Shown here one piece after another: positions 3,362 through 44,030 of a stretch of 64,000 nt of DNA. Origin of the DNA: Arthrobacter sp. Alg241-R88. Its GTDB lineage: Bacteria; Actinomycetota; Actinomycetes; Actinomycetales; Micrococcaceae. Each line of letters opens with the position of its first letter. The stretch's first letter is position 1. A model generated the notes under the pieces. That model saw only the letters and a program-made list of their open reading frames with translations. It did no database searches and was not told the DNA's origin. The translations under genes were made by a program, and so were the position numbers. The stretch spans positions 1 through 64,000 of the forward strand of contig NZ_UNRG01000008.1 in assembly GCF_900537115.1 (NCBI RefSeq), given 5' to 3'.

Positions 3362-5986
3362 TTAGTCGGGCGTCTGGCTCCTCCGACGGCGGACCAGCGC
3401 CATCAGCACGGCACCGACGGCGATTGCGGTTGCGGCAGCGCCTGCCGCGGGGAGAAGCGCGGACGGGCCGGTGTAGGCCAGGTTGCCGGTATTCCTCCGG
3501 TCACCGCTGCCTCCGGTATTGGCGAGGCCGGCAGGAAGCACGACGGCGGCGCTATCGCCGGCTGAGGCTGGTTCACTGTCTGCGGCAGGGACCGCAGCAG
3601 GAAGAACCGGAGCCAGGGACGCGTCGAGTTCCACCGTCGGAGCGTCAATGGCGAAGGCCACCGTCGCAGGAGCAGAGCTGACTCCGTCTACAGCCTGGGT
3701 CACTGAAACGGTGTGGGTTCCAACGGCCAGCCCGGCAGGGAACGGCACGGTCCAGGCTCCGCCAGCGACCAGGACCCGTGGCGCCACAGCCTGCGCGGAA
3801 GTTCGTGACCCGGCTGCGCCAACTGCCGGTGCAGCAGAGACCGCTACCCCGTCAACGGACACCATCACCTCCGCACCGGTAAGCCCTGTTCCCGAGATGG
3901 TGGCCGGAAGCATATCCGGCCGAACGTGCTGCCCTTCAGCGATGCTGTGGATAGCTGGGGCGGGTGGCAGAACGGAAAGCGTTGCCGTGACCGGAGGGCC
4001 GTCCGGAAGGCCGGCGTACCGCTGCACAGCAGTCACGTTTACCTTGCCATAAGGGGGTGGGGCCGTCAGCGGAATAGACCAGCTGCCGTCCTGGCCGACG
4101 AGACCAGAGCCTGCGATATCACCGGAAAGGGTCACCGTGGCACCGGGCGTTCCCGTGCCCGCTACGCTCGTCAGCTCAGCCAAGGGATCGATGGCCGACG
4201 TGGTGATGCTCGGCTCCGGAAGGAACGACGGGGCGATCACGACACTCATTGGCGCGGCTCCGGAACTGCTGAAGCCATTCACCGTCTCTGCTGTGAAGGT
4301 GAGGGGGCCCGGTACGTCGGGAGCTGTGAAATACCAGTTCCCTGCAAGGTCCAGGGGCACTTCGAAGGGCTGCCGGCCGGGCAAAGCTATTCGCACCTTG
4401 GAGCCGGCTGCCACCGCGGAAGCCGGGGCAGCCGGGACCCGTCCGGTGACGCTTGTTCCGCCTGGGACCGCACTGCCCGCCGGGACAAGTTCGGGCTTGT
4501 TGAGGAACAGTTCGAGCTCGACCCCGCCAGGGATACTGGCCGTGGCATCCTGCAGGGTTGCTGCAATGGCCCTGGTCTGCGTGCCGTTAAGGCTTTCGGC
4601 CCCGGCATGCATGCCGACAGCAAAATTGCCACTAATCCATGGACCACCTGAATCGCCACCGGCTGACTTCACCGACGCTGAATCGAAGGCACGGATGGGC
4701 CGAAGGTCGGTGCCTGAGCCGTCCGGCAGGTATGCGTTGTTCCGTCCCGGCATCATCCAGATACCTACTGAATCAACCGTGCCGCACTTCCATCCTGTTG
4801 TCCGTCCGGAGCGGCAGACGGCTTGGCCTTCCACGGGAGCAGCGGTCCCGACGATCCGGACGGCGCGCGGGCCCGGCGCCGCAGGGCTATCCCACTTGGT
4901 GGCGGCGGGTTGAAGGTCAAGCCCAGGAGCGAGGTCCTGGATCACGGCAATGTCGGTGCCGATACCCGCTCCAGCTGCTGTTGCGGAGGAATTGTTGGGC
5001 CCACCGAACTGGCTGAAACCAAAGGTGCCAAGAGCGGCATTTGTCGGCGTCAAAGGAATGGTTGAGCCGCCGGCAGGAGCGGCCGTCAGTGGTTCAAGTT
5101 CAGCAACTTTGGCAGCGCCGTCGTCCGTGCAGTGTCCGGCAGTCAGCAACAGTGGCAGCCCGGACGGGCTGAATGCTGCAAACCCTGCTGAACATCGAGG
5201 AAAGCTGTCCACCAGGTACCCCTGTCCGCCAAAGACGTCGTCCTCAGTCCTGACAGTGGTGCCCTCCTGGAGCTGAACATTGGCGTAGCGGGCCGCGAAC
5301 TGCGCAGGCGTCACTTTGCCGGGAGCCGCCGGCGCCACCTCAGGCCCTTGGGAGGACTGCAAGCGAGGACCAGCCTGGAGCCCCGATTCAGGGGTGTTGA
5401 CGAACCCGGTGCGAATAACAAAGCGGCCCTCTGCGTAGGTGACTGCCTGCAGCCCTTGCATTCCGACGTCGCGAACGTAGGCGTGAAACAATTCATCGAT
5501 ATCTGAAGCGACCAGTTCCGGCCCTGGCAGAGCCGCCGGCGAGGCAGAGGCCACCAGCACAAAGTCGCCACCAACCTGCTGGTTCAGCAGGTCCACTTGG
5601 GCTTCCAAGGCGGCGCCCTTGCCTTCTACCCTGATCTTTCCGGCGCCCAGGCTGATACTGGAGTAGCCCGGGAGCCCGCGCAGGGCCTCCGCGGCGGCGG
5701 CAGCGCGGCGGCCAAGTTCACCGGCAGCATTAAATTCCTCAAGGCTCATGCCGAGATCGCGGAGAACCGCTTCGGAAAGGCCCGCCTCGGTGGACCCTGT
5801 GTCGCGGATTCCGGAAGCCTGAGTATCCGCACCCCGATGCCAGCCACCGTCCGAGAATGCTTCCGGCGTCGCGGTTTTAGCGCCCGCTGACACCGGCAGG
5901 GCCGCAGCCGCCGCAGGGAGTCCCAAGACCAGCACTATCCCAGCTGCTGCTCCTGCGCCAAAGATTCGTTTCACTCGCGCCGCCAT
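3362..5986 (-). CDS. Secreted trypsin-like serine protease with LAXTG cell-wall anchor
   Basis: The 874-residue protein begins with a signal peptide (about 1-35) and a long pro-region (about 60-215) like that of alpha-lytic/streptogrisin proteases. The S1-type catalytic domain follows: His near 284 (TAGHCTDDG), Asp near 344 (GIGTDIAVIQ) and Ser near 445 (SAGGDSGGPW). Residues about 500-780 look like repeated Ig-like beta domains. The C terminus carries LAYTG, a hydrophobic helix and RRRR, matching a LAXTG substrate of class E sortase; an earlier LANTG lies about 18 residues upstream. It is probably an autoprocessed surface protease. Substrate unknown; no sortase gene is nearby. Confidence 0.85.
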   Translation of the reverse strand: MAARVKRIFGAGAAAGIVLVLGLPAAAAALPVSAGAKTATPEAFSDGGWHRGADTQASGIRDTGSTEAGLSEAVLRDLGMSLEEFNAAGELGRRAAAAAEALRGLPGYSSISLGAGKIRVEGKGAALEAQVDLLNQQVGGDFVLVASASPAALPGPELVASDIDELFHAYVRDVGMQGLQAVTYAEGRFVIRTGFVNTPESGLQAGPRLQSSQGPEVAPAAPGKVTPAQFAARYANVQLQEGTTVRTEDDVFGGQGYLVDSFPRCSAGFAAFSPSGLPLLLTAGHCTDDGAAKVAELEPLTAAPAGGSTIPLTPTNAALGTFGFSQFGGPNNSSATAAGAGIGTDIAVIQDLAPGLDLQPAATKWDSPAAPGPRAVRIVGTAAPVEGQAVCRSGRTTGWKCGTVDSVGIWMMPGRNNAYLPDGSGTDLRPIRAFDSASVKSAGGDSGGPWISGNFAVGMHAGAESLNGTQTRAIAATLQDATASIPGGVELELFLNKPELVPAGSAVPGGTSVTGRVPAAPASAVAAGSKVRIALPGRQPFEVPLDLAGNWYFTAPDVPGPLTFTAETVNGFSSSGAAPMSVVIAPSFLPEPSITTSAIDPLAELTSVAGTGTPGATVTLSGDIAGSGLVGQDGSWSIPLTAPPPYGKVNVTAVQRYAGLPDGPPVTATLSVLPPAPAIHSIAEGQHVRPDMLPATISGTGLTGAEVMVSVDGVAVSAAPAVGAAGSRTSAQAVAPRVLVAGGAWTVPFPAGLAVGTHTVSVTQAVDGVSSAPATVAFAIDAPTVELDASLAPVLPAAVPAADSEPASAGDSAAVVLPAGLANTGGSGDRRNTGNLAYTGPSALLPAAGAAATAIAVGAVLMALVRRRRSQTPD

Positions 5987-33774: not shown

Positions 33775-34173
33775 ATGCTCCTCCGTGTGGCTTTGGCCGT
33801 CGCAGTCCTCGTCATCTTCGTGTATGGCCTCGTGGACGTGATCCGCACTGACGGACGCCTCACCCGAGGGATCTCCAAGCCAGCCTGGATCGTGGTCATG
33901 ATCGTCCTGCCAGTGGTCGGTGCCATTCTCTGGCTCCTGATCGGCCGGCCACGTGGCAGCTCTCCCCAGCAGCAGAGCCAGCGCCATCCCACCGCGCCTG
34001 ACGATGATCCGGACTTCCTCCGCAACCTCGAAGCCCGCCGCCGCAACCAGGCAGAAGCAGAGCGCCTCAAGAAGCTCAAGGACGACATGGATGCCAAGGC
34101 GAAGGACGACGGCAAGGGCAGCGGCAAGGACAAGCACGAGACCGACGAACACGATAACGACGGCCTGAAGTAG
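33775..34173 (+). CDS. PLDc_N-domain membrane protein
   Basis: The 132-residue protein has two N-terminal membrane helices with VYGLVDVIRTD between and WLLIGRP after, the PLDc_N signature (phospholipase D nuclease N-terminal). No catalytic domain follows; the C-terminal 75 residues are charged, Lys/Asp-rich and helical. Role unknown. Confidence 0.85.
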   Translation: MLLRVALAVAVLVIFVYGLVDVIRTDGRLTRGISKPAWIVVMIVLPVVGAILWLLIGRPRGSSPQQQSQRHPTAPDDDPDFLRNLEARRRNQAEAERLKKLKDDMDAKAKDDGKGSGKDKHETDEHDNDGLK

Positions 34174-34224
34174 GGCGCTTCGCTGACGAGCAGTCGGCGG
34201 GCTCCCCCGTTGTTAGGCGGGTTG

Positions 34225-35712
34225 TTAGGCTGGCTGGCGTTGGCGGGCCGACGATTCCGCCAGCACTCCCTCGCAACTGCGAACGACAACCCGGCAGGCA
34301 TCAAGGGCTGAACGGTCCGTCAGCGGGTTCTCGGCAACGGCGCGCCATCGAACCAGATGGCGGCGGGCCTCATCAGCGAGCTCGCCTGGCGTTGTGTCTG
34401 CAGTCAGCCCCAGCCGCGCGTATGACGCTGCGCCCCAGCCGCCGACCAGGCCCTCGGCCTCCGCAGCCAGTTCGGGGCTGAGCGGCACGCCCGTGGTCCG
34501 AAGCGTAGCGAGCAGCCTCAGTTCCCTGAACTCATGCGCGTTTGCCTGAAGCCGCTCCAGGTCTGCGGCCAGGTGCCCGGTCCCCGGGCGGGGGGAAGTG
34601 CGCAGCAGGGTTTCCACTCCCACCAGGGCCGTCCGTGCCTTCAATGCCTCGGCACGCGCCTGGAACTGGCGGTCCAACAGGTCCAGCAACGGATCCAGGC
34701 CGCTGCGCCTCGCGAGCTCGTGCGCCAGCGGGGTAGGTTCGTTGAATCCGTTCGGGATCAGGACTACAGCCAGCCGGATGCCGAACAGCCCGTATCTCCC
34801 CAGCAGGGAGGCCCTGGACTCCGCGCTCAGCCCTTCCGGCATGGTGGACCGAAGGAACCTGTCAGCCGAGAGCAACATCTTTTCGCGGTCGGCACGGTCC
34901 AGCCCCGCCAGCAGTTGAAGTGCTGCGAAGTCCTGCTGCCGCATTGTCCGGGCGCTCTGGGCGAGGAGGCCTGCCACCGGCACCACTCCCAGTGCGAGCT
35001 TCCGCAGGTTATGGTCATGACGGTACCTGTCCGCAATCTCTCCTGCGGAAAGCAGCGAATCGATGCGGCCGCCACCCACTTCATCGGCCCGCGCGAGGAC
35101 CGCGATTGCGTTGACCGTGCCTGAGCGTCCCGCTTCCGTGTCCCGGAAGGATTCGAGGAACCGCAGGTCCGCGGCGTGCATGTGGCGCATCAGGTAAATG
35201 ATCGCGTCCGCTTCCGACTGCGTATCCGCAGGGGCCAGGAAGGCGGTGGAGCGGGCAGACACATCTTCGGACAGCGAAGCGATGCCGGGGGTGTCGATCA
35301 GGGTCATGTTCCGCAGCGCCGGCGACGGCCATTCCACGTCCAGCCGGTCCACATCACTGGCCCGCACCTCCCCCAGCACGAACACAAGCCGGCCGTCCAC
35401 GCGTTTTAGCGGCAAGGTCCGGGGCTTGCCTTCCAGGGGATACAAGGTGATCCGGGGAGTGTGCCCATGCCGATACCAGGTGATGATCCGGGTACACTCG
35501 CCCGTGTCTGTGGGCGCTATCTCCTCGCCGATAATCGCGTTGAGCAGGGTGGACTTGCCGGCTTTCACCATGCCCGCAATCGCAATGCGCAGCGGCTCCG
35601 CGAGCCTCCGGGCTAATCCTTCCAGAACGGCGGCGCTTGCGGGATCGTCGCCGTAGACTTTCAACGCCTCCTGAACCAGGTCCACGGCTCCGGCAATTGT
35701 TGAGCGATTCAT
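34225..35712 (-). CDS. iniC: Dynamin-like GTPase, IniC homologue
   Basis: The 495-residue protein has a GTPase domain at 40-250: G1 GMVKAGKSTLLNAIIG, G2 Thr in the TDTGECT region, G3 DTPG and G4-like ARAD. Helical stalk sequence follows and no membrane helix is seen. Length and position after the larger dynamin match mycobacterial IniC (about 493 residues, by recall). Its ATG overlaps the iniA-like stop by 4 nt. Bacterial dynamins remodel membranes as pairs; in mycobacteria iniBAC responds to cell-wall inhibitors. Homology is by motif and gene order, not by search. Confidence 0.8.
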   Translation of the reverse strand: MNRSTIAGAVDLVQEALKVYGDDPASAAVLEGLARRLAEPLRIAIAGMVKAGKSTLLNAIIGEEIAPTDTGECTRIITWYRHGHTPRITLYPLEGKPRTLPLKRVDGRLVFVLGEVRASDVDRLDVEWPSPALRNMTLIDTPGIASLSEDVSARSTAFLAPADTQSEADAIIYLMRHMHAADLRFLESFRDTEAGRSGTVNAIAVLARADEVGGGRIDSLLSAGEIADRYRHDHNLRKLALGVVPVAGLLAQSARTMRQQDFAALQLLAGLDRADREKMLLSADRFLRSTMPEGLSAESRASLLGRYGLFGIRLAVVLIPNGFNEPTPLAHELARRSGLDPLLDLLDRQFQARAEALKARTALVGVETLLRTSPRPGTGHLAADLERLQANAHEFRELRLLATLRTTGVPLSPELAAEAEGLVGGWGAASYARLGLTADTTPGELADEARRHLVRWRAVAENPLTDRSALDACRVVVRSCEGVLAESSARQRQPA

Positions 35713-37595
35713 TGTGCGCCCTCAGGGGTCCTGTTGGCGGCGTCCGATACTTCTGCAGCAACTGCCTCCGCGGCGTGGTGGAGGGCATCCACCTTCTTGA
35801 GCTCAGCCTTGATGTCCCTGATGCGGGCGTCCTTTTCCAGTGCGTAGGTGTTGGCGGCCGTCTGTGCCGCCGCCACAGAATCGGCGAGGGAGCGGTGATG
35901 CTCGTCCGCTATCTCGGTGAAGTGGTCGCGGATGGTGCGCTGCACCAGACGCAGCCGGTCCTTCAGTTGCTTGCCGACCTGGAAGGTAACGTCGTCGAGC
36001 TGCCGCCTGACCAGGGCCTTGGCTTCAACCTGACGGCGCTTGAGCCGCGCTTCCTTATCTTCGCGGTAAGCCTTGCGTCCCAGCAGTAGGCCGGCGCCCA
36101 AAGAGAGAGGGTTGATGAGTGCCATACCGAAGATCCCGGTCAGGAGCCCGAACATGAGCACGCCGCCGTAGGACCCTCGCATGCCGATCAGCACTTTTTG
36201 CACCGGGTTCACGTGTCCTGAATCCATCCCCGGCATCGCATCCACGGGAATTAGCAGGTCTGCCGAATTGGAAGCGTGCATCACCGGCAACCGCGCTTCC
36301 TCTGCCGCGAAGTGCTCAGCCACCTGCGCAGCGAGCCATTCCGCCCGCTCGCTGGTCAAGACGAAGGTGTCAGAAATGGCGGCGGCAACACATTCCTCCA
36401 GCCACTGTGAAAATTCCGCCCAGACGGGTCCCGGGTCCTCCTGCTCAATGGCGGTTTCGGCTTCCCGTTGGACCTGGCGAAGGCGGTTTCGGAGATCGTA
36501 CTCCATGTCGGCGATAAGGTCGCTGACGCCGTCGTTGAGCGTGATTTGCCAGCGTGCAGAGCGTTTCCGCAGGTCATCCGCCTCTGCCTTTGCCAGCTCC
36601 AGCTCCGCTATCATCTGGGGCGTGCCTTCAGGGTTTTCCAGTGCTGCAAGCTCAGATTGCAGGGAAAGGCGCAGGTTTTCGGTGACACCCAGCAGGTCCT
36701 GGCTGACCGAGCGGCGCTGGAGGCGCTGCGCCTGCCCCACGATCGCGTTGAGAAGGTAGGCAATCAATTCAGGAAAGCCCGATTCAACGTTCAGTTCACT
36801 GTCCTGCAGGCGTGCTGCTTCGAGGCGGAGGTCGGAGGACACGGGAAACAGCGGAATATCGGGGGCGACCGTGCCGAGGTGGCATCGATCCGTCTCTTCC
36901 ACCCGCCGCCAGTCCGGGTAAAGGTCGGTTTTGGTCAGGACCCCCACAACGTTGGGGGTGATCCGCATGGCCTGGCGGAGGAAGCGCAGCTCCGGTTCGG
37001 TGTACTCCTGCGAGGCGTCCGAGACCAGGAGCATCGCATCAGCCGTGGGCAATGCCGTGAGGGTGGCCAGGGTGTGGGCGGACCCCATTCCCCCCACGCC
37101 GGGTGAATCGATGACACTAAGTCCGCCGGCCAGGATCTTACGGGGCAGGCATACTTCGGCAGCCAGGAGTTTCCTGCTGTTCCCGGGGTTCCCCTTTTCG
37201 GAAACATAGGCCGGGAGCTCGGTGATGGGGATTGGCTGGCGTTCAGCGATGCCGTCGTCGCCAGGGCCCGCGTCTGCCTTGGGGGTCAGGACCGCGGCCG
37301 ACGCCGGATCCCCGTAGCGCACAACCGTGGGCACGGAGGTAGCAATGTCGTCGTCAACAGGGCAGGCCGGTGCGCCGACCAGGGCGTTGATGAGCTTGCT
37401 CTTGCCCTGCTTAAACTCACCCACCACGATGACCCGGATGCTGGGATCCTTAAGCCTCCCCAAGGTCAGGTCCAGGCGTTTTCGCAGATCCTCCCGGTCT
37501 CCAGTGCCGACGAGTTGAAGGCCGTGCTCCACAAGTTGGATCAGCTGCCCAGCCGTCACCGGTGTTGATGGGTTTGCCGGTCCAGTTTCTGCCAC
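35709..37595 (-). CDS. iniA: Dynamin-like GTPase with membrane segment, IniA homologue
   Basis: The 628-residue protein has G1 GEFKQGKSKLINALVG, G3-like DSPGVGG and G4 TKTD in an N-terminal GTPase domain (about 50-260), a long helical region, and a hydrophobic hairpin near 480-515 (GGVLMFGLLTGIFGMALINP) suited to membrane insertion, then charged helices. Size and order fit mycobacterial IniA, shown to be a membrane-remodelling dynamin. G1 ends KS-K rather than KST. The GTG start at 37595 follows AAAGGACA, 52 nt after the iniB-like stop. Confidence 0.82.
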   Translation of the reverse strand: MAETGPANPSTPVTAGQLIQLVEHGLQLVGTGDREDLRKRLDLTLGRLKDPSIRVIVVGEFKQGKSKLINALVGAPACPVDDDIATSVPTVVRYGDPASAAVLTPKADAGPGDDGIAERQPIPITELPAYVSEKGNPGNSRKLLAAEVCLPRKILAGGLSVIDSPGVGGMGSAHTLATLTALPTADAMLLVSDASQEYTEPELRFLRQAMRITPNVVGVLTKTDLYPDWRRVEETDRCHLGTVAPDIPLFPVSSDLRLEAARLQDSELNVESGFPELIAYLLNAIVGQAQRLQRRSVSQDLLGVTENLRLSLQSELAALENPEGTPQMIAELELAKAEADDLRKRSARWQITLNDGVSDLIADMEYDLRNRLRQVQREAETAIEQEDPGPVWAEFSQWLEECVAAAISDTFVLTSERAEWLAAQVAEHFAAEEARLPVMHASNSADLLIPVDAMPGMDSGHVNPVQKVLIGMRGSYGGVLMFGLLTGIFGMALINPLSLGAGLLLGRKAYREDKEARLKRRQVEAKALVRRQLDDVTFQVGKQLKDRLRLVQRTIRDHFTEIADEHHRSLADSVAAAQTAANTYALEKDARIRDIKAELKKVDALHHAAEAVAAEVSDAANRTPEGAQ

Positions 37596-37647
37596 AGCCT
37601 GTCCTTTGCGTTATGCCTCAGATCGGTTATAGCACCTTGACGGGTTC

Positions 37648-38367
37648 CTAGGAATCAAACTCCAAGTGGTCCTCCGCCTCCTCAGCGTCAGCGGCATCGT
37701 CGACATCGCCCAGGACCGGGTCTTCCTGGGTGAAGTTGGGCTCGTTATCGAAGTATGCGGCCGTGTCCTCGCTAAAGGAATCGCTGATGGAAATGGATGG
37801 GTTGGTGGTGGGGCCCGCATTCTCCGCGTGGGCATCAGTGGCAACGTCAAAGTCGAACAGGTTGTCAATCCTGGTATCGGCGAAGCCCATGTCGCTTCCA
37901 ACACCGGGGGCAGGGCCGCCGAAGGCAAGCGAGTCACTGTCGAACCATTGCTCAACATCGCCGTCCGCCCAGATGTTTTGGCTCACGGACTGGTCCAGGA
38001 CGGCGCTGCGGTCATCTCCCGCCGAGGGGTAGGCGTAATTTGCTACTACGTGCTGAAGCTGCTCGACCGCGTGTCCGTGGTCGTCGTGCCCGCCGGCACC
38101 GGGAGGCGGGGTCCAGCCACTGCCGGCATGGCCGGTACTGGCATCGTTGCCGCCGGGGTTGTAGTGCTGGTCGAAGCGGGATGCATTGACGCTGATGGGA
38201 GCGTAATCGAGGACGACTGGCATTGCCGCATCAACATCCGCGGAGCGGACACCCCCCAGACCGTGGTTTTCCAGAACGCCTTCGGGATCATCCAGGAAGT
38301 CCTGCGCCGCCTGGCGGTCGCCGAAGAGGTTCATTAGGAACTGGACGACATCCTTTGCGACTGTCAT
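37648..38367 (-). CDS. iniB: IniB N-terminal domain protein
   Basis: The 239-residue protein starts with an IniB-N-like helical domain (about 1-60: FLMNLFGDRQAAQDFLDDPE and GLGGVRSADVDAAM), followed by a disordered acidic region rich in Asp, Ala, Gly and Ser (net strongly negative). Mycobacterial IniB is longer and Gly/Ala-rich. ATG at 38367 follows GAGGACC. It leads the iniB-iniA-iniC unit and a tandem repeat lies in its promoter region. Role unknown; perhaps a partner or scaffold for the dynamins. Confidence 0.78.
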   Translation of the reverse strand: MTVAKDVVQFLMNLFGDRQAAQDFLDDPEGVLENHGLGGVRSADVDAAMPVVLDYAPISVNASRFDQHYNPGGNDASTGHAGSGWTPPPGAGGHDDHGHAVEQLQHVVANYAYPSAGDDRSAVLDQSVSQNIWADGDVEQWFDSDSLAFGGPAPGVGSDMGFADTRIDNLFDFDVATDAHAENAGPTTNPSISISDSFSEDTAAYFDNEPNFTQEDPVLGDVDDAADAEEAEDHLEFDS

Positions 38368-38406
38368 GTGCTGGTCCTCAAATCTTTAGTGTTGTCCGAT
38401 TCTCCG

Positions 38407-38440
38407 GCCTGGATGTCGAGCCTGGATGTCGAGCCTGGAT
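38407..38440. repeat. 13-bp tandem repeat in the iniB promoter region
   Basis: GCCTGGATGTCGA is repeated 2.6 times head to tail (38407-38419, 38420-38432, 38433-38440), 40-73 bp upstream of the iniB-like start. Tandem direct repeats at this distance are typical binding sites for MalT/LuxR-type activators. The adjacent regulator gene is a natural candidate ligand. Confidence 0.6.
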
Positions 38441-38477
38441 CAAACGTACTGTTGCTGCCGGGGACGGGGCATCGGGG

Positions 38478-38515
38478 CGGTTCCCCTAACCGGTGGCCGC
38501 CTTGGTGGGGAACCG
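38478..38515 (-). terminator. Possible hairpin terminator after the LuxR gene
   Basis: Arms 38478-38486 (CGGTTCCCC) and 38507-38515 pair perfectly over 9 bp around 20 bases. It lies 29 bp past the regulator stop and before the iniB promoter repeats, suggesting that iniB has its own promoter. Confidence 0.4.
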
Positions 38516-38543
38516 GCGCCGGCCCTCTTTGGGGCGTTAGGGG

Positions 38544-40616
38544 CTAGTCATGGGCTTGACTTTCCGGGCCCAAGGCAACCCGCAGCTTAGCCAGCAGATC
38601 CGAGCGGTTTTCAGCACCCAGCCGGCGCCGCATCCGTGCGATGTGGTGCTCCGCGGTCCGGGGGGAGATGTAAATGGCTTCGCCAATTTCACGGTAGGTC
38701 TTGCCGTCAAGCACCAGCCTGGCGACTTCCTTTTCCCGCTCGCTAAGCCCTGCGCCATCCGGGTGCATCGCGTTACCCGTATCAGTGGGGGGAGCATTGC
38801 GGGATTCGGCCGGCACGGATCCACCCGTGCCGGCCGAACTGGCCTGCGGGTGAAGGTCCCGGGCGCAGGACAGCAGGCGCACCATGTCTTTGCGGTCATC
38901 CGACCGGGCTGCCGCGTGGCCTGCAAGCCTGGCTCCTTCCCAACGCATTCCCACGCCGCCCAGGCCCCGTGCCGCCGTCTCGACATCGTCAGGATGGAAC
39001 CGCTCGGCCAGCACGGTTACCCAGGCTCTCCCTGCCGCCGCGAACACGGCGGCGAGGTGGCTTTGCCCAGCGGCGCGGGCCAACGCCGCGGCATGCGGTG
39101 CCAGGTCGGCGGGCCGTTCGTTCAGAAGGGCTGCCTGGACTGCCGACCAGTGGAATGGGACGGCCCACAGCGGAGGATCTCCGAGTCGCTCCAGCAAGTT
39201 CCATGCCTCATCAAGGTAAGGGATAACCCTGCGGCCCTCCCGAAGGCGGGCGGCTGCGATCATCAGCTCGCCCCACGGGAGAAGGCTGTACAGGTCTACG
39301 GCCGTGTGGAGCGTCGCTTCACGCGCCCGTTCCCACGCCTTGATAAGCCCGGGAACATCGCCGTTACGGCGGGCTATGCCCACTTCCAATGCCGAACAAA
39401 GGAACTCGTCCCGCGGCACCAGCGGCCAGTGGTTCGCCTTCGATGCCTCATTGATGGAGAGCCGGGCGTCGTCGAGCCGGTCCTGCATCATCGCTGACCA
39501 TGCTTTCAGCAGGAACAGCCTTGGCTTGGCTGCATCGCCCCCCTGACCAGCGGCAGCTGCTGACCGGCAAATTGTTTCCGCCAGGTTCGGCTCCCCGCTG
39601 TGCAGGGCCATCAGGGCTGCCAGCGCAGCCGGCGTCTCGGGCAGGGGAAGTACAGTATCCGCTGCGTTGAGCATGTCCGAGGCATGGATGAGCATCTGGA
39701 GGCCCTGATGGGAGTCGCCGGCAAGCGATTGGAGGATGCCTTTGCCGGTTTGGGCAAGGGTGGTTGCGAGCAGCGTCGGCGACGCGGGTGGTGCGTCGGC
39801 GCGGAAGATGGCTTCCGCATCGGCCCGGTTGCCGGAGCCAATCAGGGCAACGGCAGCAAGGGGTCCGGATGGGCCCAGCCGGGAGGGTCCCAGCCAACGG
39901 TAGACGTCGGCCCCACGGCCCAGCATGCCTCGCTGGGCCCAGACGGCGGCAGCAACGTCGGCGGCACGGCGCACGTCCGGCGGATCCTTCTGTACCAGGA
40001 GGGTGTCCACAATGCGTGCAGCGGCGTCAAGGTCGCCGTTGGCTGCGGCGGCCTGGGCACGCCGCGCCGCAGTGGCTTTCTCGTCGCCGCCGGCCAGCAG
40101 GGCTTCATCGTAAAGCTGGTATGCCAATCCGGGATCGTGCTCAAGGGCCTTGTCGCCGGAACGCTCCAGTTCCGCTGCCACGCGCGTATCGGCAAGTCCG
40201 GCCCGGGCCAGCTCCCGGGCGAGATCTCCCAACGGCTGGCCGTTCGCTGCGTAAACCGTCACGAGCTCCCGCTGAAGGGCGTGCACCTTGGTTGTGGGGG
40301 CGACAGTGAGCAGCTCATGCTGCACAGGGCCTGCGACAGTTCCGTCAGGAGTCAGGAGACCAGAGGACTCTGCCCGTTGTATCAGGGCATCAAGGCTGCC
40401 CGTCCCGTCGCCGTCGATCCTGCGCTGCAGCTCGGCGGGCAGCGGTCCCGGCAGGGCAAAACCTACGGACAACGCCAACAGCAGTTCCCGGACGGCCCCA
40501 TTCTCGCCCTCGAGTTGGCTGGCCATGAGCTCTGTACTGTGGGGTGCAGGTCCCTGGGGCTCCTGTTCCGGATGACGAAAAGCCGGCTTTTGTACGTGCG
40601 ACTGATAGCTGACCAT
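38544..40616 (-). CDS. LuxR-type regulator, STAND/MalT-like without NTPase domain
   Basis: The 690-residue protein ends in a LuxR helix-turn-helix (about 625-685: LSEREKEVARLVLDGKTYRE, TAEHHIARMRRRLG). The middle (about 120-600) is TPR-like alpha-helical repeat. Residues about 35-120 resemble the winged-helix segment that follows the NTPase in MalT-type STAND regulators (ALSVGFALPGPLPAELQRRI), but no Walker A or B motif is present anywhere. The start at 40616 is chosen because it lies 1 nt after the Hsp70-like stop codon. It should regulate the divergent-function but same-strand ini genes. Mycobacterial iniBAC is likewise controlled by a large LuxR-type protein, from memory. Confidence 0.75.
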   Translation of the reverse strand: MVSYQSHVQKPAFRHPEQEPQGPAPHSTELMASQLEGENGAVRELLLALSVGFALPGPLPAELQRRIDGDGTGSLDALIQRAESSGLLTPDGTVAGPVQHELLTVAPTTKVHALQRELVTVYAANGQPLGDLARELARAGLADTRVAAELERSGDKALEHDPGLAYQLYDEALLAGGDEKATAARRAQAAAANGDLDAAARIVDTLLVQKDPPDVRRAADVAAAVWAQRGMLGRGADVYRWLGPSRLGPSGPLAAVALIGSGNRADAEAIFRADAPPASPTLLATTLAQTGKGILQSLAGDSHQGLQMLIHASDMLNAADTVLPLPETPAALAALMALHSGEPNLAETICRSAAAAGQGGDAAKPRLFLLKAWSAMMQDRLDDARLSINEASKANHWPLVPRDEFLCSALEVGIARRNGDVPGLIKAWERAREATLHTAVDLYSLLPWGELMIAAARLREGRRVIPYLDEAWNLLERLGDPPLWAVPFHWSAVQAALLNERPADLAPHAAALARAAGQSHLAAVFAAAGRAWVTVLAERFHPDDVETAARGLGGVGMRWEGARLAGHAAARSDDRKDMVRLLSCARDLHPQASSAGTGGSVPAESRNAPPTDTGNAMHPDGAGLSEREKEVARLVLDGKTYREIGEAIYISPRTAEHHIARMRRRLGAENRSDLLAKLRVALGPESQAHD

Positions 40617-40617
40617 C

Positions 40618-42792
40618 TTAGGCTGCCGGCGTCGTGGTAGTGGCCGAGGCCGTGAAGGATTGATCGGAGTCCGGAAACCCCTCCAGCAATGGCGACGGGG
40701 ACACGCCAACCGTTGGCGAGGGCGAATCCTGAACCGTCGGCGAAGGCGAACCGTCCGTTGCCGGCATCGCCGTTATTGCTTTATCTGTAGGAGTAGCGCT
40801 TGCCGTTCCGGTCGAGTTGCCGGACGCCGTTCCGGTCGAGGTGCCTGACGCCGTTCGGGTCGAGGTGCCGGTCGGCCTTCCGGTCTGGCTGCCGGATGCC
40901 GTTCCGGTCGGCGTTCCGGTCTGGCTGCCGGACGGCGTTCCGGTCGGGCTGCCCGATGAGTTTTCGGACGGCGTTTCGGACGGACTGCCGGACGAGGTCT
41001 CGGACGGAGTAGCGGACGGCGTTTCGGACGGACTGCCGGGCGGCGTCTCGCCGGTAGTCGCCGTATCCGAGGGTGTGGTCGTCGTGCCTCCGGCCCCTGG
41101 CGCAGTTTCCGTTGCCCCATTGCCCTCAGCGACGGCAGCCGGCGCTGCACCGCCGGCGGAGGTTTCCGCGGAAACACCATTGTTGATAGCCGCAACAGCG
41201 GACAACCGGCTGGTGGGCCCGGCCTCCAACCCGAGGGCCGCCGCCTGGGAGGAGCCACCCTGCTTCCCGCTGGCCTCGATGCCTGTTACTGGCAGCCGGG
41301 CATCCGCCGCAGCGGCGGCCGTGGGGCCTGTCCCACTGCCACCGGTTCCTGTGGGCGGAAGTGTCTCGAAGGAGTCCGAAGCTCCGGCAGGCGGGACGAA
41401 CACGGATGTCAGGCCGCTGAAGCCTTCCGGACTTTGGGCGGCGGTGGCGCTAAGAACCGTGAATAAGGCAGCGGTAGCCGCGATAGCAGTGAGCCGCACC
41501 CTCGGTTTCGGCGCGTGCGCTCCTCCCCTCTCCCTGGAGCCTGGCCCGCGGGCCGCTGCCGTGGCGGAACCTGGCGCCGTCGTTGCGTTTCGTGACCACG
41601 GGACCACCCGAACAGGAATGTGCCCACTTTCCGGGGCAGGACTTTGTGGGCTTTCGCCGCCTGTGCCGGCTGAACCGGGATCCACCGCGGCAGAAGCCTC
41701 AGTGGGGGCTGGTTGCCCCAGCACTGCGGAAACGGCGGCGCCCAGGCAGATTGACGATTTGGGGTCGGCATCCACGGCGATGGGCCTGTCAAGCTGCTCC
41801 GAGATCAGCTGTGCAACGAGGGGAATCCGGGAAGATCCGCCAATGAGCAACACAGCGGTGAGGTCCGGGGGCCCCAGCTCCAGCTGCCCCAGCGATTGTT
41901 CCAGCGCGTCCACCGTGTCCCGAATGTGTTCCTCAATCAGTGCTTCGAATTCCGGGCGGACCAGGCGGACCTGCTGCTGGATGCCCGGCAGGAGCACGGA
42001 GATGCTCGCCTCGCTGTCGGAGGAGAGCGCTTCCTTGGCTTCCACGCACTCCCGTCGCAGCCGGGCCAGCGCGGCGAGCACTCCAGGCTCGGCGGTGTCC
42101 AGCTCTGCCAGGGCCCCACCGGTGTTTTCAGCCACGAAACGGAAAAGGGCGGCATCAAAGTCGGCGCCGCCCAGGTCTTCAAAGCCCTCCGGCCGCCCCA
42201 GCAGTTCGAAGCGGTTGCTGGCAGTCTTACGGAGGACAGCAGTATCGAAGGTCCCACCGCCGAGGTCGTACACAGCGATGGTACTGCCGGCTTCCACCCG
42301 CACCTGCGAGGCATAATGCAGGGCGGCTGCTTCCGGTTCGCTCAGCAGGGTGACTTTCCCAAGTCCGGCTGCAGCAAGGGCGTCCTTGATGAGGGACGTC
42401 CGGTGGGCGCCCCATGCGGCGGGATGGGTCAGGATGATTTCCGACGGCGGCTCAGCCTCGCGCTCGGTTGCCCGGTCTGCCACCCACCGGGCCATGGTGG
42501 CGAAGACGTCCTCGGCTGGGAGCGACCGCATGCCTACTGAGATGGGCACAGCATCGCCCACCCGGCGCTTGAACTCACGAACTACGCGCCCAGGGGAATC
42601 GAGCCCGCGGCGCTCCGCGGCCTCCCCCACCAGGACGGGGCCTTCCTCCGGGTAATACACCACAGACGGCACAGCTGATCCCCGAAGGCCCAGCGGCAGG
42701 CACTCCGGAACTGGCGCGGCTCCGTCATGAAAACGGACAACAGCGGCCGCCGTGAAACTGGTCCCCACATCAATGGCGAGAACGTAGCTCAT
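40618..42792 (-). CDS. Membrane-anchored Hsp70-like ATPase with Thr/Ser/Pro tail
   Basis: The 724-residue protein has an Hsp70/actin-fold nucleotide-binding domain (1-375): phosphate loops AIDVGTSFTAAAVV and AVYDLGGGTFDTAVL and adenosine loop VLLIGGSSRIPLVAQL. There is no Hsp70 substrate-binding domain. A basic stretch, then one membrane helix (about 430-455), leads to a roughly 270-residue tail rich in Thr, Ser, Pro and Gly with SETPSGSP- and TGTASGS-type repeats, predicted outside the cell. ATG at 42792 follows GAGG. Its stop lies 1 nt before the LuxR start. I infer a transmembrane sensor whose cytoplasmic ATPase acts on the regulator. Confidence 0.8.
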   Translation of the reverse strand: MSYVLAIDVGTSFTAAAVVRFHDGAAPVPECLPLGLRGSAVPSVVYYPEEGPVLVGEAAERRGLDSPGRVVREFKRRVGDAVPISVGMRSLPAEDVFATMARWVADRATEREAEPPSEIILTHPAAWGAHRTSLIKDALAAAGLGKVTLLSEPEAAALHYASQVRVEAGSTIAVYDLGGGTFDTAVLRKTASNRFELLGRPEGFEDLGGADFDAALFRFVAENTGGALAELDTAEPGVLAALARLRRECVEAKEALSSDSEASISVLLPGIQQQVRLVRPEFEALIEEHIRDTVDALEQSLGQLELGPPDLTAVLLIGGSSRIPLVAQLISEQLDRPIAVDADPKSSICLGAAVSAVLGQPAPTEASAAVDPGSAGTGGESPQSPAPESGHIPVRVVPWSRNATTAPGSATAAARGPGSRERGGAHAPKPRVRLTAIAATAALFTVLSATAAQSPEGFSGLTSVFVPPAGASDSFETLPPTGTGGSGTGPTAAAAADARLPVTGIEASGKQGGSSQAAALGLEAGPTSRLSAVAAINNGVSAETSAGGAAPAAVAEGNGATETAPGAGGTTTTPSDTATTGETPPGSPSETPSATPSETSSGSPSETPSENSSGSPTGTPSGSQTGTPTGTASGSQTGRPTGTSTRTASGTSTGTASGNSTGTASATPTDKAITAMPATDGSPSPTVQDSPSPTVGVSPSPLLEGFPDSDQSFTASATTTTPAA
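40800..41050. repeat. Degenerate tandem repeats coding the Thr/Ser/Pro tail
   Basis: The DNA coding the Hsp70-like tail consists of variants of a short unit (plus-strand forms such as CGGACGGCGTTCCGGTC and CGGACGGCGTTTCGGACGG) repeated many times, with many internal 12-base identities. Such low-complexity coding repeats usually vary in copy number between strains. Confidence 0.6.
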
Positions 42793-42907
42793 GGGTACCT
42801 CGGTAAAACTCGTGGTCGCCAGCAAGCTTCATCACGGGCGCACGTCACCAAGGTAGCATCACGGCCGGGACCGCGAATACCCCCATTGCTACACCGATTT
42901 GTTATTT

Positions 42908-42925
42908 GCCCGCGGTACAGCGGGC
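42908..42925 (-). terminator. Terminator after the cytochrome c biogenesis operon
   Basis: GCCCGC (42908-42913) and GCGGGC (42920-42925) pair over 6 bp, extended by flanking A-T pairs, around a 6-base loop, 20 bp beyond the ccsB stop; AAATAAC follows on the minus strand. Confidence 0.6.
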
Positions 42926-42944
42926 ATTAGGGAGAAACCCCTGC

Positions 42945-44030
42945 TCAGAGGCCCGAATACGAGTGAAGCCCGTTAAAGAACTGGTTCACGATGGTGAAGT
43001 TGAAGATAACGCAGAGGTAGCCAACGATCGACAACCAAGCTGCGCGCGTTCCTGTCCAGCCGCGGGTTGCGCGGGCGTGCAGGTAGCCCGCGTAGACAAC
43101 CCAGATAACGAACGTCCACACTTCCTTGGTGTCCCAGCCCCAGAACCGGCCCCAGGCTTTCTCGGCCCAGATGGCGCCAAACATGAGAGTGAAGGTCCAT
43201 CCGATGAACGCGATGGCGTTGATGCGGTAGGAAAGGTTCTCGAGGCTCAGCGCGGACGGCACCAGCCGCATAAAGCCCAGCTTGTCCGTACCGCCGGCGG
43301 CAACGGTCTTCAGCCGGCGCGCCTGGACCAGCTGCAGCGCCGACATCGCGAACGTCAGGGTGAACAGGGCCGAGGAGAGCACGGCGATGGACACGTGGAT
43401 GATCAGCCAGTAGCTCTGCAGGGCGGGAACCAGGTGGCCAACGGGCGTCCAGTACGCCACGGAAGCGGCCACCAGCATAATAATGACCAGGCCCACTACG
43501 AACGTGCCGAGGAAGCGCAGGTCGCGGCGGATCAGCACCAGCAGGAACACGGCGGCGGCAACGAAGGCGCCGGTGGTGAGGAACTCGTACATGTTGCCCC
43601 AGGGCACCCGGCCCGCGCCCAGCGCGCGGGTCAGCACCCCGGCGCCATGGATCAGCGCACCCAGGACCGTCAGGGCTACGGCCACCCGGGCGGGAGCGCG
43701 CCTTTCGGCAGCGTACTTCATGTCGCCGTCGGCGGTGATGGCTCCCCCGGCCCCGTTCTCTGCTGACGGGGAGGCGGACGACGACGGCCGTTCAGCCCTG
43801 CCCGCCGGCCCGGCGAGGTGCGACTCGCTGCGGGCTCCCGCCCCGGCCCCCACCGGCATCCGGGCCGGGTCTTCCGCCTGCGCCGCCTTGAGGTCGATGG
43901 CGCGCAGGGCCTTGCTGCTCTTGGCCAGGTCCCACGCGAAAGCTATGAAGGCCACCGTGTACGTGCCTGCAGCGAGCAGCATAAAGAGCTCGCTGTACTG
44001 GCCCATGGTTTCGTTGATTCCGTACGGCAT
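42945..44030 (-). CDS. ccsB: Cytochrome c biogenesis protein CcsB/CcsA (System II)
   Basis: The 361-residue protein has about 8 membrane helices and the haem-handling WWD-type motif WGRFWGWDTKEVW, with conserved His residues in the surrounding helices. With ResB it carries haem outward and attaches it to apocytochrome c. An Ala/Ser-rich hydrophilic insert follows the first helix. Start overlaps the resB stop (TAATG). Confidence 0.92.
   Translation of the reverse strand: MPYGINETMGQYSELFMLLAAGTYTVAFIAFAWDLAKSSKALRAIDLKAAQAEDPARMPVGAGAGARSESHLAGPAGRAERPSSSASPSAENGAGGAITADGDMKYAAERRAPARVAVALTVLGALIHGAGVLTRALGAGRVPWGNMYEFLTTGAFVAAAVFLLVLIRRDLRFLGTFVVGLVIIMLVAASVAYWTPVGHLVPALQSYWLIIHVSIAVLSSALFTLTFAMSALQLVQARRLKTVAAGGTDKLGFMRLVPSALSLENLSYRINAIAFIGWTFTLMFGAIWAEKAWGRFWGWDTKEVWTFVIWVVYAGYLHARATRGWTGTRAAWLSIVGYLCVIFNFTIVNQFFNGLHSYSGL

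Follow-up and report, generated by a model that had tools for sequence, protein, structure and literature searches.

IniR activates iniBAC, the classic drug-induced operon of mycobacteria, and a candidate link between envelope damage and this activator is offered by a five-gene block of Arthrobacter sp. Alg241-R88, at positions 34225–42792 of a stretch of 64,000 nucleotides (nt) that we refer to as the window (contig NZ_UNRG01000008.1, positions 1 to 64,000), in which the gene of a membrane-spanning Hsp70-like protein abuts that of an IniR-type regulator, just upstream of iniB, iniA and iniC. The two genes abut in 102 of at least 118 distinct IniR sequences, and the Hsp70-like protein is a concrete candidate for the partner of IniR. 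In the maltose regulon of E. coli the transporter ATPase MalK holds the activator MalT, and on balance we lean towards a similar arrangement here, an iniBAC-type envelope-stress unit in which the membrane Hsp70 would sequester the activator in the way MalK does MalT, and would free it on damage. Sequence comparisons provide the parts of this unit, their conserved linkage, a predicted topology, a missing nucleoside triphosphatase (NTPase) and conserved promoter boxes.

The locus is real, conserved and partly known; iniBAC and IniR have both been described. Mycobacterial IniR binds upstream of iniBAC, and induction of the operon requires it; trehalose induces the operon, seemingly without import, and Boot et al. 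locate the sensing of trehalose in the periplasm and raise the binding partners of IniR as a question (PMC5760070). The same paper gives one sentence to a dnaK-like gene beside iniR, in M. smegmatis alone among the species compared. A further iniBAC repressor, HpoR, has been described in BCG, in a paper whose main text does not use the words Hsp70 or DnaK (PMC13413693). We found no treatment of the IniR–Hsp70 pairing beyond the M. smegmatis sentence in the candidate papers, which were covered in part.

Organisation of the locus

All five genes, and the domains and promoter regions described for them below apart from one inverted box, lie on the minus strand, and transcription runs in the order hsp70-like, luxR-like, iniB, iniA, iniC. 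An earlier sequence-only reading of this DNA had placed the five open reading frames (ORFs) in this way, with iniB, iniA and iniC in their mycobacterial order next to an abutting Hsp70/LuxR pair, and profile searches bear it out: Dynamin_N, HSP70 and GerE exceed their cut-offs in Pfam, as does IniB_NTERM in NCBIfam. A single nt separates the stop codon of the Hsp70-like gene from the ATG of the regulator (TAA g ATG), and this junction is our reason for taking that ATG as the likely start. The Hsp70-like protein (40618–42792) has 724 residues counted from the ATG at 42792, within a maximal ORF that begins at 42825. The regulator (38544–40616) has 690 residues, and its maximal ORF begins at 40709.

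Further downstream, iniB (37648–38367; 239 residues) carries the only IniB N-terminal domain in the window genome (IniB_NTERM, NF038175; 64.9 bits, cut-off 40), and its C-terminal part gave no family match. The genes of the iniA-like GTPase (35709–37595; 628 residues) and the iniC-like GTPase (34225–35712; 495 residues) overlap by 4 nt, and both products, members of the dynamin family, are over the Pfam cut-off for Dynamin_N (53 bits against 27 for the IniC-like protein). Residues 16–614 of the IniA-like protein align with the solved M. smegmatis IniA (PDB 6j72/6j73; E 6e-141), and the IniC-like protein has a weak match to solved dynamin-like proteins. The gene order, the IniB N-terminal domain and the two dynamin-like GTPases identify the downstream genes as iniBAC. 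IniA performs GTP-dependent membrane fission (PMC6715688).

Conserved linkage of Hsp70, IniR and the dynamins

The sequence-only reading had made its case depend on conserved linkage of the Hsp70/LuxR pair with the dynamins, and the linkage is indeed conserved; 26 of 27 IniR-bearing genomes have an Hsp70-like gene in the cluster. These 27 come from a class-wide sample of 296 genomes, in which a match over 100 bits was called IniR and all other genomes scored 53 bits or less. An Hsp70-like gene lies directly upstream on the same strand in 19 of them and elsewhere in the cluster in seven; in the remaining genome (G107) the cluster is broken up between two contigs, and an Hsp70-like gene lies at the end of one of them. 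The Hsp70 profile was built from members of the same loci, and in G255 (L028) it gave a weak match without the first motif. Seven family codes are represented (f1, f4, f10, f14, f19, f33 and f46), among which f10/g15 is presumably Mycobacterium because 12 of its genomes exceed the NCBIfam IniR equivalog cut-off. The arrangement thus recurs across actinobacterial families and is not a chance grouping.

Two further samples gave similar counts. IniR occurs in 20 of 396 genomes of the window's own order; with three fragmentary matches (G332, G370 and G435) left out, Hsp70 is adjacent at 14 of the 17 loci, in the cluster at two, and missing from one (L128). Among the best 80 loci from named genomes, a set biased by its selection for likeness to the window, 76 are adjacent and four lie at contig edges. 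The at least 118 distinct IniR sequences in the pooled set comprise 102 adjacent cases, ten in the cluster (two of these, L021 and L022, are one locus), five at edges and one without Hsp70. The junction, measured from the in-frame ATG or GTG nearest to it, falls within −10 to +15 nt in 93 of the 102, mostly at +3, +1 or −4. As a small negative control, Hsp70 was found at none of five loci with an IniB-type gene but without IniR or dynamins.

Two apparent Hsp70–regulator fusions were rejected as artefacts: the single ORF in L085 crosses unknown bases, and in L095 part of the tail is Arg/His-rich and appears to be read out of frame. Both loci, together with L093, were counted as adjacent by hand. 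Eight presumed mycobacterial loci have a degenerate Hsp70-like gene in another place, downstream of IniR in L007 (11590–13347), L009, L010, L011 and L013 and downstream of IniC in L012, L016 and L018; in L016 it is the sole one.

Among 121 genomes of the window's genus, IniA is present in 62, IniR in 63 and Hsp70 in 62, with all three in 61 and none in 58. G739 (L158) has no IniA, and G756 (L159) has no Hsp70 and its IniA is in pieces. Where the dynamins are missing, in G739 and in L063, the Hsp70 domain shows a gap along with an altered motif. The block in the window is flanked by ccsB on one side and by a small ORF and then menA on the other (33775–42944). Two of six block-less genomes (L163 and L164) show a clean empty site, with ccsB within ~200 nt of the flanking small ORF, then menA; in the other four, no match to the window's flanking genes was found in the ~1.5 kb examined. 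Co-inheritance as a block accounts for part of the presence and absence pattern in the genus.

A rival reading, in which the unit is an anti-phage or conflict system of dynamins and Hsp70, can draw on the patchiness of the block. IniR is present in 63 of 121 genus genomes with a clean empty site in two of six, IniA matches the PADLOC Leo dynamin model at 45.8 bits, and Hsp70 without a peptide-binding domain is known from predicted conflict systems (PMC7159879). However, of the LeoA/LeoBC gene set of a Leo-type system PADLOC gave partial dynamin matches of 27 to 46 bits only, leaving the regulator, IniB and Hsp70 unmatched, and the block is most closely related to an envelope-stress operon for which an inducer has been studied (PMC5760070). 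We regard a defence function as very improbable.

An Hsp70 domain with a predicted membrane anchor and outward tail

Residues 1–360 of the Hsp70-like protein (41713–42792) form an Hsp70 nucleotide-binding domain with intact catalytic motifs. The Pfam HSP70 score is 147.8 bits against a cut-off of 20.6, with the match stopping at profile position 376 of 599; the predicted model has a pLDDT above 90 across nearly all of this region, and the best Foldseek match is DnaK (4jn4; E 4e-29). The phosphate-1, phosphate-2 and adenosine motifs are all present, as are six of six catalytic residues. After residue 360 the model contains only a membrane helix and disorder, and thus no substrate-binding domain.

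The single hydrophobic segment of the protein, a predicted membrane helix, spans residues 434–452 (41437–41493; helix 437–452 in the model), numbered from the ATG at 42792. It is followed by a Pro/Thr/Ser/Gly/Ala-rich tail of 272 residues (40621–41436) that is predicted to be disordered and is 47% Pro, Thr and Ser, so that the anchor and the Thr/Ser/Pro tail proposed earlier both stand. With a Kyte-Doolittle score of at least 1.5 taken as a membrane segment, a helix is found at 99 of 106 Hsp70-like loci (L024, L026, L031, L086, L105, L113 and L119 fall below this score), and in 98 of the 99 the 15 residues before the helix hold more Lys and Arg than the 15 after it. This charge bias predicts that the ATPase domain lies inside and the tail outside, in agreement with the topology originally suggested. 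Among Micromonosporaceae, a long tail is missing from the Hsp70-like partner in L105, L113, L116, L118 and L119, and so is the membrane segment in L105, L113 and L119. The window genome also contains a third Hsp70-like gene (G000:C2:737841-739274, L041) that is distant from both DnaK and the window protein.

An IniR-type regulator that lacks the NTPase

The neighbouring protein had been described as a LuxR protein, and its LuxR/GerE-type helix-turn-helix (HTH; residues 625–687, 38556–38744) is confirmed by a GerE match of 46.6 bits and by the model; its kinship with IniR and its absent NTPase had been missed. The best NCBIfam match is IniR (NF038181; 368.8 bits), covering profile positions 223–825 of 827. 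Alignment, motif and profile searches found no Walker A/DDAH segment of the kind carried by other IniR proteins, either in the window regulator or in its close relatives, and the STAND NTPase module typical of STAND and MalT-type regulators is likewise missing.

The predicted model of the regulator is almost wholly helical, with a mean pLDDT of 87.5. Residues 242–592 (38841–39893), a region of helical repeats, align best with MalT domain III (1hz4; Z 20.7, 340 residues, rmsd 4.2), a match that lies within Z 1 of those to three unrelated TPR chains; Foldseek ranked eukaryotic TPR proteins first, and MalT domain III came top only with a second aligner. Boot et al., using Phyre2, gave mycobacterial IniR a MalT-III-like domain (PMC5760070). 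The window protein thus has the MalT-domain-III-like region and the C-terminal LuxR HTH expected of IniR and fails two tests of membership, the equivalog cut-off and the NTPase; from its sequence we class it as an NTPase-less IniR-type regulator. With the NTPase gone from the activator in the window's lineage, Hsp70 is left as the one domain on the sensor side that can be recognised as using ATP. A short IniR paralogue in G107 (L019:2827-4392) seemingly joins the NTPase part (profile 3–325) to the HTH (745–824) without the MalT-like middle, and a weak Hsp70-like match follows at 4338–5606.

Loss of the NTPase and the state of the Hsp70 domain

The loss of the NTPase shows in how far the regulator core lies from the Hsp70 stop, namely 211–289 residues at 50 NTPase loci compared to 20–123 at 51 of 52 NTPase-less loci, the exception being the frameshifted L080. 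The NTPase is absent from Pseudarthrobacter, Paenarthrobacter, most Arthrobacter loci, Compostimonas, L102, L025, L027 and L028, and is kept in L075, L076 and Zafaria. This could mean that the Hsp70 domain took over the NTPase role of the regulator, with the reverse having happened in other lineages. We scored six positions, which we take from DnaK biochemistry to be the catalytic ones, against each genome's own DnaK. Among NTPase-less loci from Micrococcaceae and from the window's own family, 45 of 46 retain six of six and the other one five, whereas the 12 presumed mycobacterial IniR proteins all contain Walker A and have in their clusters an Hsp70 with one of six residues. In line with such a swap, G696, of the window's genus, pairs an NTPase-bearing IniR with an Hsp70 that keeps three of six residues. 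When an Hsp70 with five or six residues is counted as intact, the 106 pooled loci divide into 48 intact and three degenerate where the NTPase is absent, and 26 and 29 where it is present. The copy in G696 (L157, C1:145000-164999) is a second, divergent version of the whole block, and its Hsp70 is without the phosphate-2 motif.

The association weakens once relatedness is considered. When redundancy is removed, 61 regulators remain, and for 54 of them both states are known; the counts are then 16 intact and three degenerate without the NTPase, and 19 and 16 with it, so that three rows have neither ATPase and 19 have both. On the tree the states change at least five and at least seven times, and the independent-pairs test gives no association (three starred pairs, p 1). 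Since all four combinations occur, we reject strict replacement of the NTPase by Hsp70 as a general rule; the swap is attractive, the second copy in G696 being one reason, but does not have statistical support, and we consider it improbable. The pairing moreover outlasts the loss of the Hsp70 catalytic residues, which speaks for a binding role no less than for ATP turnover. Left out of the pooled comparison and the helix count were L080 and L112 (frameshifted), L049, L125 and L126 (identical cores) and L021, L029 and L033 (regulator cut or truncated); the regulator tree omits L080, L021 and short cores, and the Hsp70 tree omits L028, L112 and L129.

Conserved boxes before iniB

The region between the regulator and iniB (38368–38543), which we take as the iniB promoter region from a 15-locus footprint alignment, a k-mer test and the sequence itself, opens with the box CCCCTAAC (38536–38543) directly after the regulator stop codon. 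A degenerate direct copy, CCCCAAAG, follows at 38527–38534, and an exact inverted copy, reading CCCCTAAC on the plus strand and GTTAGGGG on the minus strand, lies at 38483–38490, 45 nt on from the first box. The boxes are followed by a conserved CCCGATG and a TANNNT-like element, TACGTT (38443–38448). Across 15 aligned loci of Pseudarthrobacter/Paenarthrobacter type, this stretch contains CCCCTA in 14 (L063 is without it), CCCCTAA in 13, inverted TAGGGG in ten, CCCGATG in 14 and TA(C/G)GTT in 14.

The same box emerges from more distant loci. In each of three groups enumerated apart, CCCCTAA is the top 7-mer before iniB, at 19 of 34 loci (0.9 expected), 10 of 12 presumed mycobacterial loci, which were not thinned (0.2 expected), and 9 of 12 others (0.2 expected), with expectations taken from first-order Markov resampling. 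Three boxes spaced 17–18 and 15 nt are found in eight of the 12 presumed mycobacterial loci, and CCCCTA occurs before iniB, on one strand or the other, at 42 of 52 non-redundant loci. The boxes resemble MalT boxes, which are repeated G-rich promoter boxes. The region upstream of the hsp70-regulator unit (42793–42944) has GTAGCA (42887–42892) and TGCTAC (42853–42858); among 14 relatives including the window, GTAGCA occurs in 11 and TGCTA in 14, and CCCCTAA occurs in none on either strand. Published chromatin immunoprecipitation (ChIP) places IniR directly upstream of iniBAC, in a section that names no box (PMC5760070), and on this ground we infer that the CCCCTAA boxes are the operator of the regulator.

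Genome-wide uniqueness was considered as further evidence for an operator and set aside. The inverted box pair occurs once in the 4.37-Mb window genome (19 contigs), at the iniB promoter, but a reversed control pattern also occurs once on each strand count and the pattern had been derived from the iniB promoter region itself; uniqueness is therefore weak, and it is conservation that carries the operator assignment. The number of single CCCCTAAC boxes in the window does not exceed chance (two found, 1.19 expected), and a simple sigma-70 scan of 37300–43100 returned no promoter-like site (0.7 expected). The presumed iniB 5' leader contains two and a half copies of a tandem repeat, ATCCAGGCTCGAC (38408–38440), that is not visible by eye in 14 aligned relatives.

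Hsp70-like genes beside dynamin pairs without IniR

IniA relatives are present in 48 of the 296 class genomes, and we examined 20 of the 26 IniA places without IniR, up to ~10 kb on each side, some of these stretches being less than 20 kb long. Some of the Hsp70-like proteins found there end in WD40 or PQQ propellers and others have a membrane segment. Genes that couple an Hsp70 domain to a WD40 or PQQ end lie beside dynamin pairs without IniR or IniB at L145:13853-16288, L148:11301-13364 and L150:14110-16626, and L147 has three Hsp70-domain genes with similar-looking ends.

This wider association could indicate that the Hsp70-like protein is a partner of the dynamins, acting in the assembly, disassembly or recruitment of IniA and IniC at damaged membrane, and is a neighbour of the regulator by clustering only. 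Hsp70-like genes at 9 of 20 IniA loci without IniR, some fused to WD40 or PQQ propellers, favour such a role, as do ten IniR rows in which Hsp70 is in the cluster but away from IniR. In contrast, Hsp70 and IniR abut, seemingly translationally coupled, in 102 of the 118 distinct sequences, the dynamins often form a separate or divergent unit, and Hsp70 was not seen near 11 of the 20 IniR-less dynamin pairs compared to 1 of 113 IniR rows uncut by a contig edge. We judge a pure dynamin partner rather unlikely.

The same link beyond iniBAC also supports a broader idea, which we hold tentatively: that actinobacterial Hsp70-domain proteins are envelope sensors controlling membrane-remodelling dynamins, built from a (pseudo-)ATPase inside and a variable part (Pro/Thr tail, WD40 or PQQ propeller), and that in the iniBAC branch they may serve as the transmembrane partner of IniR by MalK-like sequestration, in an arrangement that would outlast the loss of IniR's NTPase. 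The sequence-only reading, which had proposed a general envelope-stress system, is partly supported by these results; it had noticed neither the CCCCTAA boxes before iniB nor the association of Hsp70 with dynamins at large.

A model for signalling across the membrane

For the locus itself we return to sequestration of the activator by the membrane Hsp70. There are probably two transcription units, hsp70-regulator on the sensor side and iniB-iniA-iniC, with translation of the activator probably coupled to that of the Hsp70-like gene. At rest, the Hsp70 domain would tether the activator to the membrane, in the way that MalK, a transporter ATPase, holds MalT. Damage to the wall or membrane may then act on the outward tail and alter the Hsp70 domain in its nucleotide state or its assembly; the activator would be freed, bind the CCCCTAA boxes before iniB and switch on iniB-iniA-iniC, and the IniA/IniC dynamin pair would remodel the plasma membrane. 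The contact between Hsp70 and the regulator, its sign, sensing by the tail and binding of the boxes are the steps that we infer.

Several observations weigh against this model. The window regulator scores 369 bits against an equivalog cut-off of 750 and keeps the HTH and middle region of the IniR profile with the N-terminal NTPase gone. Only one of the direct boxes in the window is exact, and 10 of 52 non-redundant loci have no exact CCCCTA hexamer before iniB. With Hsp70-like genes next to 9 of 20 IniR-less dynamin pairs, it may be the dynamins and not the regulator that Hsp70 serves, and one IniR locus (L128) has no Hsp70, IniB or dynamins in the 20 kb examined. ATP switching cannot be general, given that presumed mycobacterial Hsp70 keeps one of six catalytic residues, and some mycobacteria seem to regulate iniBAC without the dnaK-like gene, which has been named for M. 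smegmatis alone among the species compared. Finally, genes that move as one block can be expected to show linkage and co-loss, and neither is proof of interaction.

If the model is true, Hsp70 domains gain a signalling role and a tie to bacterial dynamins. With 85% identity, Arthrobacter sp. OY3WO11 and Pseudarthrobacter oxydans are among the closest named relatives of the window regulator in the matches listed, so that the host is Pseudarthrobacter-like, and the candidate partner could be tested in such harmless soil bacteria, which, unlike the mycobacterial hosts of iniBAC, presumably have no mycolic acids.

Comparison with known systems

The window protein shares with Hsp70/DnaK chaperones the fold and catalytic motifs of the ATPase domain, but where they have a substrate-binding domain it continues into a membrane helix and a long tail predicted to lie outside. 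Like predicted GTPase-centred conflict systems, the locus links an Hsp70 domain standing alone to GTPases; those systems use other GTPases, and dynamin, IniR and IniB are unnamed in the main text that describes them (PMC7159879).

The likeness to MalT and MalK of E. coli is closer in layout. The window has the MalT-domain-III-like region (1hz4, Z 20.7), the C-terminal LuxR HTH, repeated G-rich promoter boxes and a membrane-bound ATPase encoded beside the regulator; it differs in having no STAND NTPase and no transporter, and its ATPase is Hsp70-like rather than of the ABC type. Mycobacterial iniBAC with IniR (Rv0339c/MMAR_0612) has the same iniB-iniA-iniC order and a neighbouring IniR-type regulator with the MalT-III-like region and LuxR HTH, and the presumed mycobacterial loci share the CCCCTAA boxes before iniB (10 of 12) and the Hsp70-like gene directly upstream of iniR (11 of 12). 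In contrast to the mycobacterial loci, the window regulator is without the N-terminal NTPase, the window Hsp70 keeps six of six scored residues, and the regulator pair and iniBAC are co-oriented.

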